NCBI GenBank assembly: GCA_030531595.1
Contig: JAUNND010000006.1
Location: 1 to 57,702 of the forward strand
Reading direction: 5' to 3'
Source of the DNA: Eubacteriales bacterium
Lineage (GTDB): Bacteria; Bacillota; Clostridia; Oscillospirales; Oscillospiraceae
DNA length: 57,702 nt
The translations under genes and the position numbers were made by a program. Position 1 is the stretch's first letter. Every line of letters begins with the position of its first letter. Below are positions 54,069 through 57,587 of the stretch, piece by piece. The notes beneath the pieces are model-generated. The model did not search any database and was not told the origin of the DNA. It saw nothing but the letters and a program-made list of their open reading frames with translations.

Positions 54069-54443
54069 ATGGAACTTACTAAAAGCGAACTTGAAATCAT
54101 GAATGTCATCTGGAAAGCAGACAAACCTCTGACCCGCGGCGAGATACTCAGATACTCAAACGATAAAACATGGAAAGACAGCTCTATTCATATCCTGCTC
54201 AACGGGCTTATGAAGAAAGGCGCCATTTCGGAAGCCGGCTTTGCAAAAAGCGGAAAGACTTTCGGTCGTGTCTATGCAGCCACTCTCAGCGGTGAAGAGT
54301 ATTACAGCTCCAAGGTGTTTTCTTTCTGCGGCAAGGAGGGAGTTGCGGATTTCTTTGCAGCGCTTATCAGATGCGATGGTGTCGATGCCCAGATGCTTGA
54401 ACAGCTTGAGCAGATAATCGACAAGAGAAAAGCTGAGCTCTGA
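54069..54443 (+). CDS. BlaI/MecI/CopY-family transcriptional repressor
   Basis: 124 residues. N-terminal winged helix (ELTKSELEIMNVIWKADKPLTRGEILRY; DSSIHILLNGLMKKGAI recognition region) and a helical C-terminal dimerisation part. It lacks the CxCxxxxCxC copper motif of CopY and there is no BlaR-type sensor protease beside it, so neither copper nor beta-lactam control is supported. It has its own promoter and terminator and precedes a VanZ/ATPase/HAD unit. Confidence 0.88.
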   Translation: MELTKSELEIMNVIWKADKPLTRGEILRYSNDKTWKDSSIHILLNGLMKKGAISEAGFAKSGKTFGRVYAATLSGEEYYSSKVFSFCGKEGVADFFAALIRCDGVDAQMLEQLEQIIDKRKAEL

Positions 54444-54554: not shown

Positions 54555-55040
54555 TTGAAACACAGGATCAAAATTTTTCTGTATATTCTGCTTTCACTGC
54601 TGCTGATGGTGATGATCTTCTGCTTCTCATCACAGGATGCGGAGCAATCCAGAAACCTGAGTGACGGACTATCCGCAAAACTGATGGAGTTTCTCGCTCA
54701 AATAAGTCCGCTTGCGGTGCGCTTCCTGAGAAACGGAGAAAATATCCGGACGCTTGCCCATCTGATTGAATATACTTGTCTCGGGGCAAGCTATATGCTT
54801 TTGCTGCATGAGCTTTTTATGAGCAGACCCGGTTCGCTGAAGCTCTGCTGCATTTTTGCCGTCGATGCCGGACTTGTGTATGCCCTCTCCGATGAAGTAC
54901 ATCAGATATTTGTGCCGGGTCGGGCGTTTCAGATTTCGGACATTGCGGTCGATCTCATCGGGTGCATCATCGGCAGTGCGGCAGCAGCCCTGATAATCAA
55001 ACTAATCAAAAAAACTGGAGCATCATTTAATGAGCATTAA
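54555..55040 (+). CDS. VanZ-family membrane protein
   Basis: 161 residues from a TTG start (GGAGA 6 bp upstream; no ATG is in frame near it). Four membrane helices; the family pattern is clear in IFCFSSQDAEQS, AHLIEYTCLGASYMLLL and ALSDEVHQIFVPGRAFQISD, where Ser-Asp-Glu-x-His-Gln is the VanZ signature. VanZ-like proteins affect teicoplanin and lipoglycopeptide resistance in some hosts, but most are of unknown function. Overlaps the ATPase-like gene by 11 bp. Confidence 0.9.
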   Translation: MKHRIKIFLYILLSLLLMVMIFCFSSQDAEQSRNLSDGLSAKLMEFLAQISPLAVRFLRNGENIRTLAHLIEYTCLGASYMLLLHELFMSRPGSLKLCCIFAVDAGLVYALSDEVHQIFVPGRAFQISDIAVDLIGCIIGSAAAALIIKLIKKTGASFNEH

Positions 55041-57018
55041 GCACTCTTTGCCAAAGATGAAAGAATCGGATAAGCAGATCAAGAATATCAGGCAGAAGAA
55101 CATTCCTTCATTCAAGCTGCCCAGAATCAGTTTCAGATCAATACTTCCGGAACATAAAGCGAGGAACTGTTACGGAACGGACCTGTTCAGTATTGTTTTA
55201 CTCGCTCTTTCGGCGGCACTGTTGATCGTGTCCCGCTTTATCGGAGACAAAGGCTTTTTAACTCCGGCAGTGCTGATCGCTGCTCTTGTTCTGGCGGGGA
55301 AAGATGTTTTTCTTGCGGTCTTTGACGATGCCGCTGCCGGAAACTGTTTCTCTGAGGAGACTGTTTTCGTGCTCGCATCTGTTGTCACGGCCGCTTTCGG
55401 GAATTTTGCCGACGGCGCGGTGATCATGTTTGCCTACCGTGTATGCCGTATGGCTGAAGCACTTTCGGAAAAAAAGATCAGATCCGCTGCAGACTGGCTG
55501 AATATCGAGCTGCCCAAACGTTCCTCGGTCGAAACCGGCGAGGGTATAAAGGTGGTCTCTCCGAAAAAGATCAAAAAGGGGAGAATAGTGATCGTTCCGG
55601 CCGACGGAATAATTCCGGTCGACGGTATCGTTCTGGAAGGTGACAGCCGGATGGATACTTTCCCGATAACCGGCTGTGAGCAGGCGGTTGGCGTATCCTA
55701 CGGCAGTACGGTATACAGCGGGTGCATCAACAAAGACAACGAAATAAGAATAAAAGCCATAGCTGATTTTGATGATTCGACAGCCTGCATTATCAGCTCC
55801 ATGCTCACTCAGGGCATGGATTACTTATCGGAAAAGGAGAAGCTGATAGATTACTGGACGCGGCTTGCCGCCGCAGGGTGCATTGCTGCGGGAATCATTC
55901 TGGCGATCGTGCCGCCGATCATACTTGGGATCGACTGGCCCGTCTGGATAGGGAAAGGATGTGCCCTTGCCGCGCTTTCCGCCTGCTATCCGCTGTCAAA
56001 GGCGGTTTCAATGTCATTCCATGCGGGGATCGTCCTGTGCGCATCAAAGGGAATCAATGTGGGGGGAAACCGTATCCTTGAAAAATTAACTTCTCTTTCG
56101 GCGATCATTTTCAATAAAACAGGCACTCTGACAGAGGACAGGTATGAAATCGAAGAGATCTGCGCAGAAACGATGGACGATTATGAGCTCCTTGCCATAG
56201 CTGCCGTTGCAGAGCAGTTTTCCGATCATCCTATCGCCAGGGCGGTCTGTCGGGAATGTATGTCATATGAGCATATGGAGAGAAGCGATGTACAGTTCGA
56301 GGAGATAGAAGGCAGGGGAATGAGCGCAGGTGTAAGAGGGAGACATATTCTCGTAGGAAACGCCGGTCTCCTTGAGGACAATAATATCAGCTGTGTAATT
56401 CCGCGCAGAGGAGGAACTGCGATCCATGTCGCGGTGGACGGGAAATACTGCGGTTACATTATTCTCGGAAACAAACTGAAGGAAAACGCTTTCGACACGA
56501 TAGAAGCGCTGAGGCAGTTCAAAATAAACAGTTTTGTCATGCTTACGGGCGATCTTCTTGCCAACGCGAGAGCTGCGGCATCGACGCTCAACTTCGATAT
56601 GATGAAAGCGGAGCTTTCAAAGGAGGAAAAGCTGTCGGCGATAGAATATCTGAAAACCTCTGAGATCAACGGGAGAGCCGTGGCTTATGTGTGCAGCGGA
56701 TGCGAAGATGAGAATTTCTTCACGAAAGCCGACATAGGAGTATCGATCGGAGCGCTGGGATGCCGTGGAGCCATGTCGGACGCGGATGTTCTTATCATGG
56801 CTGACGATATGAAGCTTCTTCCGAAAGCTGTGGAGTATTCCGTCAGATCGGGCAATACCGCGAGTATTGAAACGATCGTTTACGGGGCGTTTAAGCTGCT
56901 GCTTATCCTGCTTACGGCTGCCGGATTATGTCCGGTCACTGCTGTGATGCTTCTGGATCTTTTAATATCAGCCGCACTTCTGTTCTACTCATGCGTTGCC
57001 CTGCGGATCAATGACTGA
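55030..57018 (+). CDS. degenerate P1B-type ATPase-like membrane protein (probable pseudoenzyme)
   Basis: 662 residues, full length and uninterrupted. Order of parts is that of heavy-metal P-type ATPases: membrane helices from about 50, actuator domain (about 145-245), helices 265-345, P/N domains (350-590), two final helices. But the key residues are lost: the phospho-acceptor motif DKTGT is N362-K-T-G-T, the actuator TGE is T214-G-C-E217, the metal-site CPC is C319-Y-P321, and the hinge GDGxND is replaced by S556-G-C-E-D-E. The nucleotide-domain motifs SDHP and GRGM and the TGD motif remain. Without the aspartate it cannot use the normal cycle, so it is probably regulatory or structural. No N-terminal metal-binding domain. 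Confidence 0.9.
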   Translation: MSIKHSLPKMKESDKQIKNIRQKNIPSFKLPRISFRSILPEHKARNCYGTDLFSIVLLALSAALLIVSRFIGDKGFLTPAVLIAALVLAGKDVFLAVFDDAAAGNCFSEETVFVLASVVTAAFGNFADGAVIMFAYRVCRMAEALSEKKIRSAADWLNIELPKRSSVETGEGIKVVSPKKIKKGRIVIVPADGIIPVDGIVLEGDSRMDTFPITGCEQAVGVSYGSTVYSGCINKDNEIRIKAIADFDDSTACIISSMLTQGMDYLSEKEKLIDYWTRLAAAGCIAAGIILAIVPPIILGIDWPVWIGKGCALAALSACYPLSKAVSMSFHAGIVLCASKGINVGGNRILEKLTSLSAIIFNKTGTLTEDRYEIEEICAETMDDYELLAIAAVAEQFSDHPIARAVCRECMSYEHMERSDVQFEEIEGRGMSAGVRGRHILVGNAGLLEDNNISCVIPRRGGTAIHVAVDGKYCGYIILGNKLKENAFDTIEALRQFKINSFVMLTGDLLANARAAASTLNFDMMKAELSKEEKLSAIEYLKTSEINGRAVAYVCSGCEDENFFTKADIGVSIGALGCRGAMSDADVLIMADDMKLLPKAVEYSVRSGNTASIETIVYGAFKLLLILLTAAGLCPVTAVMLLDLLISAALLFYSCVALRIND

Positions 57019-57020
57019 CT

Positions 57021-57587
57021 ATGAATGCTTATGATTTTGATAAAACTATCTACCCCAAGGACAGCTCGGCGGAATTTTTCGGTTTCTGTCTGAAAAGTTA
57101 TCCGTTGGCTGTGTTGAGAGCATTTCCGGGAATTATTTCCCGCTATATAGCGTTTAAGACAAGACAGGGAACATTTCTTGAACTGAAGGAGCAGGTATTC
57201 TCTTTTCTGAAGTATGTTCCCGACATTGACTCGGCTGTGGAGCTGTTCTGGCAGGAGAGAAAAAACAATATAGGAGAATGGTATCTGAAGCGGAAAAAAA
57301 GCGACGATGTAATAATTTCCGCATCGCCGGAGTTCCTTCTCAGACCGGTGAGCGAGATGCTCGGCGTGGAGCTGATCGCAACGGTGATGGATAAGCGTAC
57401 CGGTGAAATAAGCGGCCTCAACTGTCATGATAAAGAAAAGGTCAGACGGTTTAGAGAGAGATATCCCGAGGGCAGGATCGCGGAATTCTATTCCGACTCT
57501 TATGCCGATACGCCGCTGGCCCAGGCTGCGGAAAAAGCGTTTATGGTAGGAAAAGGGAAGATCGACCCATGGAAGAATAAAAAGTAA
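57021..57587 (+). CDS. HAD-superfamily subclass IB phosphatase-like protein
   Basis: 188 residues starting 2 bp after the ATPase-like stop. All four HAD motifs are present: I YDFDKTIYPKDSS (D5 nucleophile, D7 acid/base), II ISASPEF, III Lys in DKEKVRRF, IV FYSDSYADTPL. It resembles phosphoserine-phosphatase-like members acting on small phosphates or lipids; substrate unknown. As the last gene of the VanZ/ATPase-like/HAD unit it is intact, in contrast to its degenerate neighbour, which belongs to the same superfamily. Confidence 0.88.
   Translation: MNAYDFDKTIYPKDSSAEFFGFCLKSYPLAVLRAFPGIISRYIAFKTRQGTFLELKEQVFSFLKYVPDIDSAVELFWQERKNNIGEWYLKRKKSDDVIISASPEFLLRPVSEMLGVELIATVMDKRTGEISGLNCHDKEKVRRFRERYPEGRIAEFYSDSYADTPLAQAAEKAFMVGKGKIDPWKNKK

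Follow-up and report, generated by a model that had tools for sequence, protein, structure and literature searches.

P-type ATPases take their name from a phosphorylated aspartate. Here a genus-wide family appears to have been kept under selection without the pumping machinery, and the question raised by the locus is what such a protein does. The gene lies in a 57,702-nt stretch of forward-strand DNA from an Eubacteriales bacterium (JAUNND010000006.1, positions 1 to 57,702), referred to as the window, in which the following features were assigned:

54069..54443, + strand: BlaI/MecI/CopY-like repressor, upstream of the VanZ gene (domain scans)
54555..55040, + strand: VanZ-family protein, an optional part, overlapping the pseudo-pump by 11 nt (domain scan)
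55030..57018, + strand: P1B-ATPase-like pseudo-pump, 662 aa (ORF, domain scans, AlphaFold)
55669..55677, + strand: TGC, residues 214-216 (T214-G215-C216), replacing the actuator TGE (alignment to intact relatives)
55981..55989, + strand: ACY, residues 318-320 (A318-C319-Y320), replacing the membrane CPC metal motif (alignment)
56113..56115, + strand: N362 where DKTGT has its phosphorylated Asp; K363, T364 and G365 retained
56212..56232, + strand: EQFSDHP, E395 to P401, retaining E395 and H400 of the nucleotide site in the N domain
56311..56319, + strand: G428-R429-G430, N-domain glycine loop, kept
56356..56361, + strand: G443-N444 of the N domain, kept
56692..56709, + strand: CSGCED, residues 555-560 (C555-S556-G557-C558-E559-D560), replacing the P-domain GDGxND (alignment)
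57021..57587, + strand: HAD-IB phosphatase, the near-constant partner, whose motifs DFDKT, SAS, K140 and SDSYAD are intact

The pseudo-pump frame comprised 662 codons with zero internal stops, and the strings FNKTGTLT (N362), PITGCEQ, SACYPLSK, SGCEDENF, SDHPIAR, GRGM and MLTGD were read in its translation. None of the four features of a functional P1B-type ATPase (phosphorylated Asp, TGE, a CPC-type motif and GDGxND) was present in the window protein, and its CSGCED segment retained the third residue (Gly) and the final Asp of the GDGxND hinge motif. The first-pass annotation had described Asn in place of the Asp and the replacement of all four hallmark sites, which was borne out by alignment to intact relatives, and a full frame without a stop that kept SDHP and GRGM, which was confirmed by the ORF and by motif reading. 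The losses it reported were real, but two of the replacements, read as CYP and SGCEDE, were one residue out of register.

The window protein scored 67.6 bits against PF00122 (E1-E2 ATPase, cut-off 28.1), 45 bits against PF00702 (hydrolase, cut-off 26.4) and 283 bits against NCBIfam TIGR01525 (heavy-metal P-type), the last being below the curated cut-off of 346.25. The solved structures that matched it best by sequence included CopA (7r0g, 3j08) and ZntA (4umv). An AlphaFold model (pLDDT 90.4, pTM 0.87) showed elements of the A, N and P domains together with eight long helices where membrane segments were expected. The protein resembled P1B-type ATPases such as CopA and ZntA in domain order, predicted fold, the HP, GxG and GN of the N domain and, in the P domain, K363 and TGD, whereas it differed from them in lacking the phosphorylated Asp, TGE, CPC and a full GDGxND and in falling below the TIGR01525 cut-off. 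It would be assigned to the P1B-ATPase fold family, by homology only, and annotating such genes as metal-translocating ATPases would mislead.

A P-type match at 1e-20 was obtained in 102/102 genomes of the genus, the listed best matches mostly sharing 29-37% identity with the window protein. From 60 genomes the best locus was taken with flanks, and from each of 31 more a single locus was taken; together with the window these gave 92 rows from 92 genus genomes. All 92 rows were of the dead type, which was thus recorded in 92 of 102 genomes. A fragment short of the Asp, TGE and CPC sites (L243, G041) was excluded from the 92, and L250, truncated by a contig start, was kept with its gaps scored as motif losses. 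The complete set of four motifs was found in 0/92 dead rows and in 36/36 canonical rows, the latter being a non-random choice from high-scoring matches, and 43/92 dead rows had none of the four left. Counted singly, the Asp was intact in 29 dead rows, GDGxND in 20, TGE in 4 and CPC in 1 (the gaps of L250 counted as losses). Position 362 was occupied by D in 29 rows, G in 25, S in 14, N in 11, E in 11, and T and C in one each. TGE was gone in all 29 Asp-keeping rows, and CPC was also gone in 28 of them. In one subclade of nine full-length rows the actuator domain itself was gone, 130 residues having shrunk to 37-39; a model of one such protein (L237; AlphaFold pLDDT 89.4, pTM 0.80) had no strands between the helices at the actuator site.

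It had been suggested at first pass that homologues in close relatives with the normal Asp, or relaxed selection across the gene, would refute the observation. Neither outcome was encountered, with the qualification that the Asp persists in the 29 rows, every one of them without TGE; the homologues from the 91 other genus genomes all proved to be of the dead type. A read error or strain mutation was rejected, Asn being common to the window's clade and dead types being present in 91 other genomes. Two loci matched RGIG5982 (Oscillospiraceae bacterium, sheep omasum) and RUG12904 (Ruminococcaceae bacterium) at 75/75 and 23/23 sampled 60-mers, respectively. A related-locus search with the window protein alone returned no relative. 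Among the best-scoring 30 loci of a family-wide search over 250 genomes, the 6 from this genus were dead and the 24 from other genera were intact; of 80 loci listed in a further contig scan, 78 had the Asp, and the 2 without it both belonged to members of the genus, a listing that sets no bound to the distribution. Among the nine genus genomes without a HAD match, the five other than G030, G034, G035 and G092 were looked at, and in each of these the top pump match was intact.

The closest dead pairs gave dN/dS values of 0.048-0.257, and canonical paralogue pairs gave 0.057-0.260, for lists in which pairs share branches and which comprise 40 canonical pairs and the 45 dead pairs of highest similarity, one of the latter lacking a dS value. 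The earlier suggestion to look for dN/dS below 1 was answered in the affirmative for these closest dead pairs, at 0.05-0.26 and like active paralogues. The window gene itself was too divergent: its best relative was 36% identical, the dN/dS figures come from other homologue pairs, and its branch was long (1.09 and 1.38 in two trees). The values were also pooled by domain over pairs hand-picked from the closest-pair lists. Dead pairs without the Asp (9 pairs) gave 0.047 for the N domain, 0.049 for P, 0.103 for A and 0.113 for TM; dead pairs with the Asp gave 0.103, 0.044, 0.156 and 0.134, and active paralogues (8 pairs) gave 0.111, 0.055, 0.061 and 0.094, in the same order. Therefore, the A domain was less constrained in either dead set, and the N domain was more constrained only in the set without the Asp, where N and P were the domains held most tightly; the comparison is between pair groups that differ in divergence (dS roughly 0.9 vs 0.3). 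The N-domain value of the Asp-keeping pairs (0.103) was no lower than that of the active pumps (0.111). The claim of selection for a non-pumping function stood, with frames open genus-wide, close pairs well under a dN/dS of 1 and nucleotide-site residues kept, and a putative pump without pumping function under selection is well supported.

The residues K363, E395, G430, G443, D508 and K534 were kept in 92/92 dead rows, while N444 was kept in 89/92, H400 in 85/92 and G428 in 84/92, some rows having changed. All nine nucleotide-site residues together were present in 46/63 rows without the Asp, in 29/29 rows with it and in each of the nine actuator-less rows. The window protein displayed a pseudoenzyme pattern, with catalytic residues lost and all nine nucleotide-site residues kept. 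E395 and H400 were taken to correspond to E1064 and H1069 of ATP7B. The equivalence between dead-family and ATP7B sites was set by motif. ATP7B residues G1099, G1101, G1149 and N1150 are reported near ATP in the available part of PMC3203118. At a mark of at least 95% conservation in the other 91 rows, 26 positions were obtained, all within residues 363-541 (P and N domains), a mark out of reach for A-domain positions given gaps there in ten rows. The window protein held 25 of these 26 positions at 38% identity to the consensus. Because the A-domain residues D198, G204 and G231 were invariant in 62 rows with an actuator domain, that domain, where present, is not simply idle. Further, F488, E492, R495, F522 and Y540 of the P domain were near-fixed in the dead family and not in canonical pumps, and such family-specific positions hint at a new surface. 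The N-terminal tail (window 55030-55180) had a KHLxP-like start in many dead rows, with H5 in 78/92, at the place of the His-rich tails of two intact sister pumps.

In a careful 44-row tree, the dead rows grouped as one clade (100/100) apart from the canonical paralogues, and its sister was a clade of HAD-linked pumps from genus g79 (100/99). Five of the six g79 pumps preceding a HAD gene were intact (L266, L268-L271); L268, whose 5' end is cut, showed gaps at TGE in the alignment, and its open frame reads TGES. These pumps resembled the dead family in their downstream HAD gene and sister position and were unlike it in having DKTGT, TGES, CPC and GDGxND intact and, in two of them (L266 and L270), a His-rich tail. 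Because intact HAD-linked pumps form the sister clade, the dead family would descend from a working pump already linked to the HAD gene. The window's own clade in this tree (L143, L151, L189, L235; 96/88) carried Asn throughout. In a quick tree of 100 rows, the Glu rows L200 and L248 joined it with a support of 82, long branches being flagged by the program, and at least seven changes were required between Asp and non-Asp, or 12 among the letters themselves. With intact relatives at one end and actuator-less proteins at the other, the graded series allows asking what the fold does besides pumping. The sixth g79 pump (L267:3607-5499, - strand) was a dead HAD-linked pump with the Asp kept and TGD, SFA and GDAVSD at the other sites; it lay on a long branch, was 51% identical to the intact L266 and had a HAD partner with intact motifs.

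As a rule, the start of the HAD gene lies no more than a few nucleotides from the pump stop. This gene adjoined the pump downstream in 66/70 pump-anchored loci, while the other flanking genes varied; the denominator of 70 was used since 22 of the 92 rows had been fetched around the HAD gene itself. In the first set of pump-anchored loci it was near the pump in 58/61. Its start lay within 1.4 kb in 88/92 rows, at -4 to +36 nt in 63 (10 of them at -4), at 493-562 nt in 23, and at 174 and 285 nt in two. A nitroreductase-like gene stood beside the pump in 17/61 loci, the HAD gene then being about 420 to 560 nt off. Other flanks in the 61 loci were SpoIIIAA/AB (30), UvrA (23), Obg (17), VanZ (14) and LigA (8), VanZ and HAD being named by domain scan and the others from sequence. 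In the four of 70 loci without an adjacent HAD gene (G011, G079, G014, G057), a homologue with weaker scores was found far away or on another contig (compare L272, L273). The first-pass annotation had locked the pump into a unit with VanZ and HAD by overlaps and had asked whether these genes co-occur. The 11-nt VanZ overlap was found, but the HAD gene starts 2 nt after the pseudo-pump without overlap, and co-occurrence held for HAD (66/70) but not for VanZ (14/61). A fixed VanZ-pump-HAD operon was rejected on this last count. The link between pump and HAD phosphatase is strongly supported, and that between VanZ and pump is weak.

The HAD phosphatase was intact, as had been described, with its catalytic motifs present. 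Its protein scored 63.7 bits against PF12710 (cut-off 27); it shared the catalytic motifs of the HAD-IB phosphatases (TIGR01490, PF12710) and, at 62 bits, missed the TIGR01490 cut-off of 98.3. S102, K140, D159 and D163 were invariant in 26 aligned rows, chosen by their first motif, which in other HAD rows read DFDQT, DFDET or DFDRT. A HAD match was found in 93/102 genus genomes, including 34/34 of high quality, and the nine without it were 57 to 80% complete. The genus appears to retain a non-pumping metal pump with ATP-binding parts, almost invariably adjacent to a gene for an intact phosphatase, and this suggests that an old pump was put to another use, perhaps as a sensor or regulator in the membrane. 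HAD homologues were present in 41/200 family genomes and 18/72 genera, and 15 HAD loci of other genera had no P1B gene within the fetched stretch; HAD, therefore, does not need the pseudo-pump. Near the HAD homologues L280 and L281, from two other genera, lie genes which we presume to be UbiA-like prenyltransferase genes, and these neighbours hint at a prenyl or lipid phosphate as the possible HAD substrate. With a phosphatase as near-constant partner, the system can be approached directly by experiment.

The reading that we find slightly more probable than not is that of a pseudo-pump, anchored in the membrane, which binds nucleotide and regulates or places the HAD phosphatase, nucleotide binding and regulation being our inference. 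Very probably, a zinc/cadmium-type pump that already stood ahead of the HAD gene lost, in this genus, its metal motif and actuator loop; many lineages would also have lost the phosphorylated Asp or the P-domain hinge, the frame staying under purifying selection. The protein would then, as conservation suggests with fair probability, still bind ATP or ADP between the N and P domains. No pump aspartyl phosphate would be formed, at any rate in proteins that, like that of the window, have lost the Asp, so that switching would follow from nucleotide occupancy and not from turnover. The 29 of 92 rows that keep the Asp might still be phosphorylated. In the weakest step, for which synteny speaks and which we hold only tentatively, this membrane nucleotide switch could recruit or regulate the HAD phosphatase near its substrate. 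The nucleotide-binding sensor or scaffold envisaged at first pass may fit the conservation. It is conceivable, although we place it below an even chance, that a heavy-metal pump was turned into a membrane nucleotide-occupancy switch controlling a partner phosphatase. The switch would then have arisen from a working pump linked to HAD, through repeated changes of the phosphorylated Asp (at least seven in the 100-row tree) and, in one subclade, shedding of the actuator domain. If true, this would be a class of P-type ATPase pseudoenzymes comparable to the pseudokinases.

Several other explanations were weighed against this pseudo-pump. A transporter with unusual chemistry could still move an ion or a lipid, a case that has been made for TMEM94/ERMA, which is also poor in motifs. 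The dead family retains its membrane helices, their dN/dS is well below 1, the Asp persists in 29/92 rows, and ERMA needs the Asp of its degenerate motif (D427) for Mg2+ uptake, according to the accessible part of PMC13322241. Against this, no TM position reached 95% conservation in the dead rows, though G341 and G632 reached 90%; CPC was intact in 1/92, D643 was kept in 34/92 and K622 in 59/92, nine rows were without an actuator domain, and the window protein and 62 other rows were without the Asp. We regard such a transporter as unlikely. Slightly less probable still is a regulatory subunit or dominant partner, in which the dead pump pairs with an active P1B paralogue and gates it: intact P1B paralogues were seen in all 20 genus genomes from which one was taken (chosen from the match list) and conservation extends over the N and P domains, but the constant neighbour is HAD and not a live pump.

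A pump-derived metal sensor or receptor that reports metal to the HAD enzyme was considered improbable. His-rich tails in two sister-genus pumps (L266, L270) and H5 of the N-terminal tail in 78/92 dead rows would suit it, whereas CPC and D643 are mostly lost and no His-rich tail was seen among the dead rows whose tails were displayed. A pseudogene in decay, or else a faulty assembly, could be read from the long branch of the window gene and from the 112 of 196 canonical-invariant positions that were kept in <60% of dead rows. It is contradicted at the family level by frames that are open genus-wide and by dN/dS of 0.05 to 0.26 in close pairs, while the window protein keeps 25/26 conserved positions and shares its Asn with its clade. 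This explanation was judged very improbable, and the pseudogene was rejected on the dN/dS values and the 25/26 positions.

Human TMEM94/ERMA would be the nearest precedent found. The available part of PMC13322241 describes a P-type fold in which TGES is absent, GDGVND has become GSSANL and DKTGT is changed; the likeness to the window protein lies in a P-type-ATPase-like protein with degenerate motifs. The two differ in that ERMA is eukaryotic, keeps its Asp (DKQGI) and needs it for transport, according to the same portion of PMC13322241, which also describes its N-domain pocket as occluded, in contrast to the conserved nucleotide-site residues of the dead family. The first-pass statement that no role was described for such a protein is qualified by this case insofar as the portion available of PMC13322241 describes such a protein, P-type-ATPase-like and degenerate in its motifs. 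Among 9,634 UniProt P-type ATPases, a 2014 survey counted 22 without an intact DKTGT and presents them, in the text at hand, as isolated cases, being sequencing errors, non-functional or highly specialised (PMC3896382). These cases share changes in DKTGT with the dead family, and a conserved clade or a partner is absent from their description in that text of PMC3896382. No such dead family was found in the available part of a 2023 P-type ATPase-related review (PMC10654040). A literature search on dead P-type ATPases, with partial coverage that makes absence weak evidence, found no equivalent family.

A second, different dead P1B-like protein of 545 aa, without an actuator, was found in the window's own genome (L003:988-2622, + strand; G000:C44:15422-17056). 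It carried FDNAG, SEQP and LLCED at the motif sites; motifs were read in 20 members, and its relatives were present in 72/102 genus genomes at 1e-60 and in 9/150 family genomes from 3/72 genera (g1, g79, g30). This second actuator-less family and L267 of the sister genus suggest that such conversions may recur here. When 297 genomes of the order were searched for a Ser/Gly-KTG pattern, six matches turned up in as many genomes, and the reversed-pattern control gave 9 matches in 8 genomes. One of the six matches, L343 from another family of the order, was a P1B-like frame with FGKTGTLT, TGD, CPT and GDGVND. In genus g30 (L207, L224, L274), the HAD gene lay close to a same-strand frame for a different kind of P-type ATPase, with VDKTGTIT and ALITGESD.
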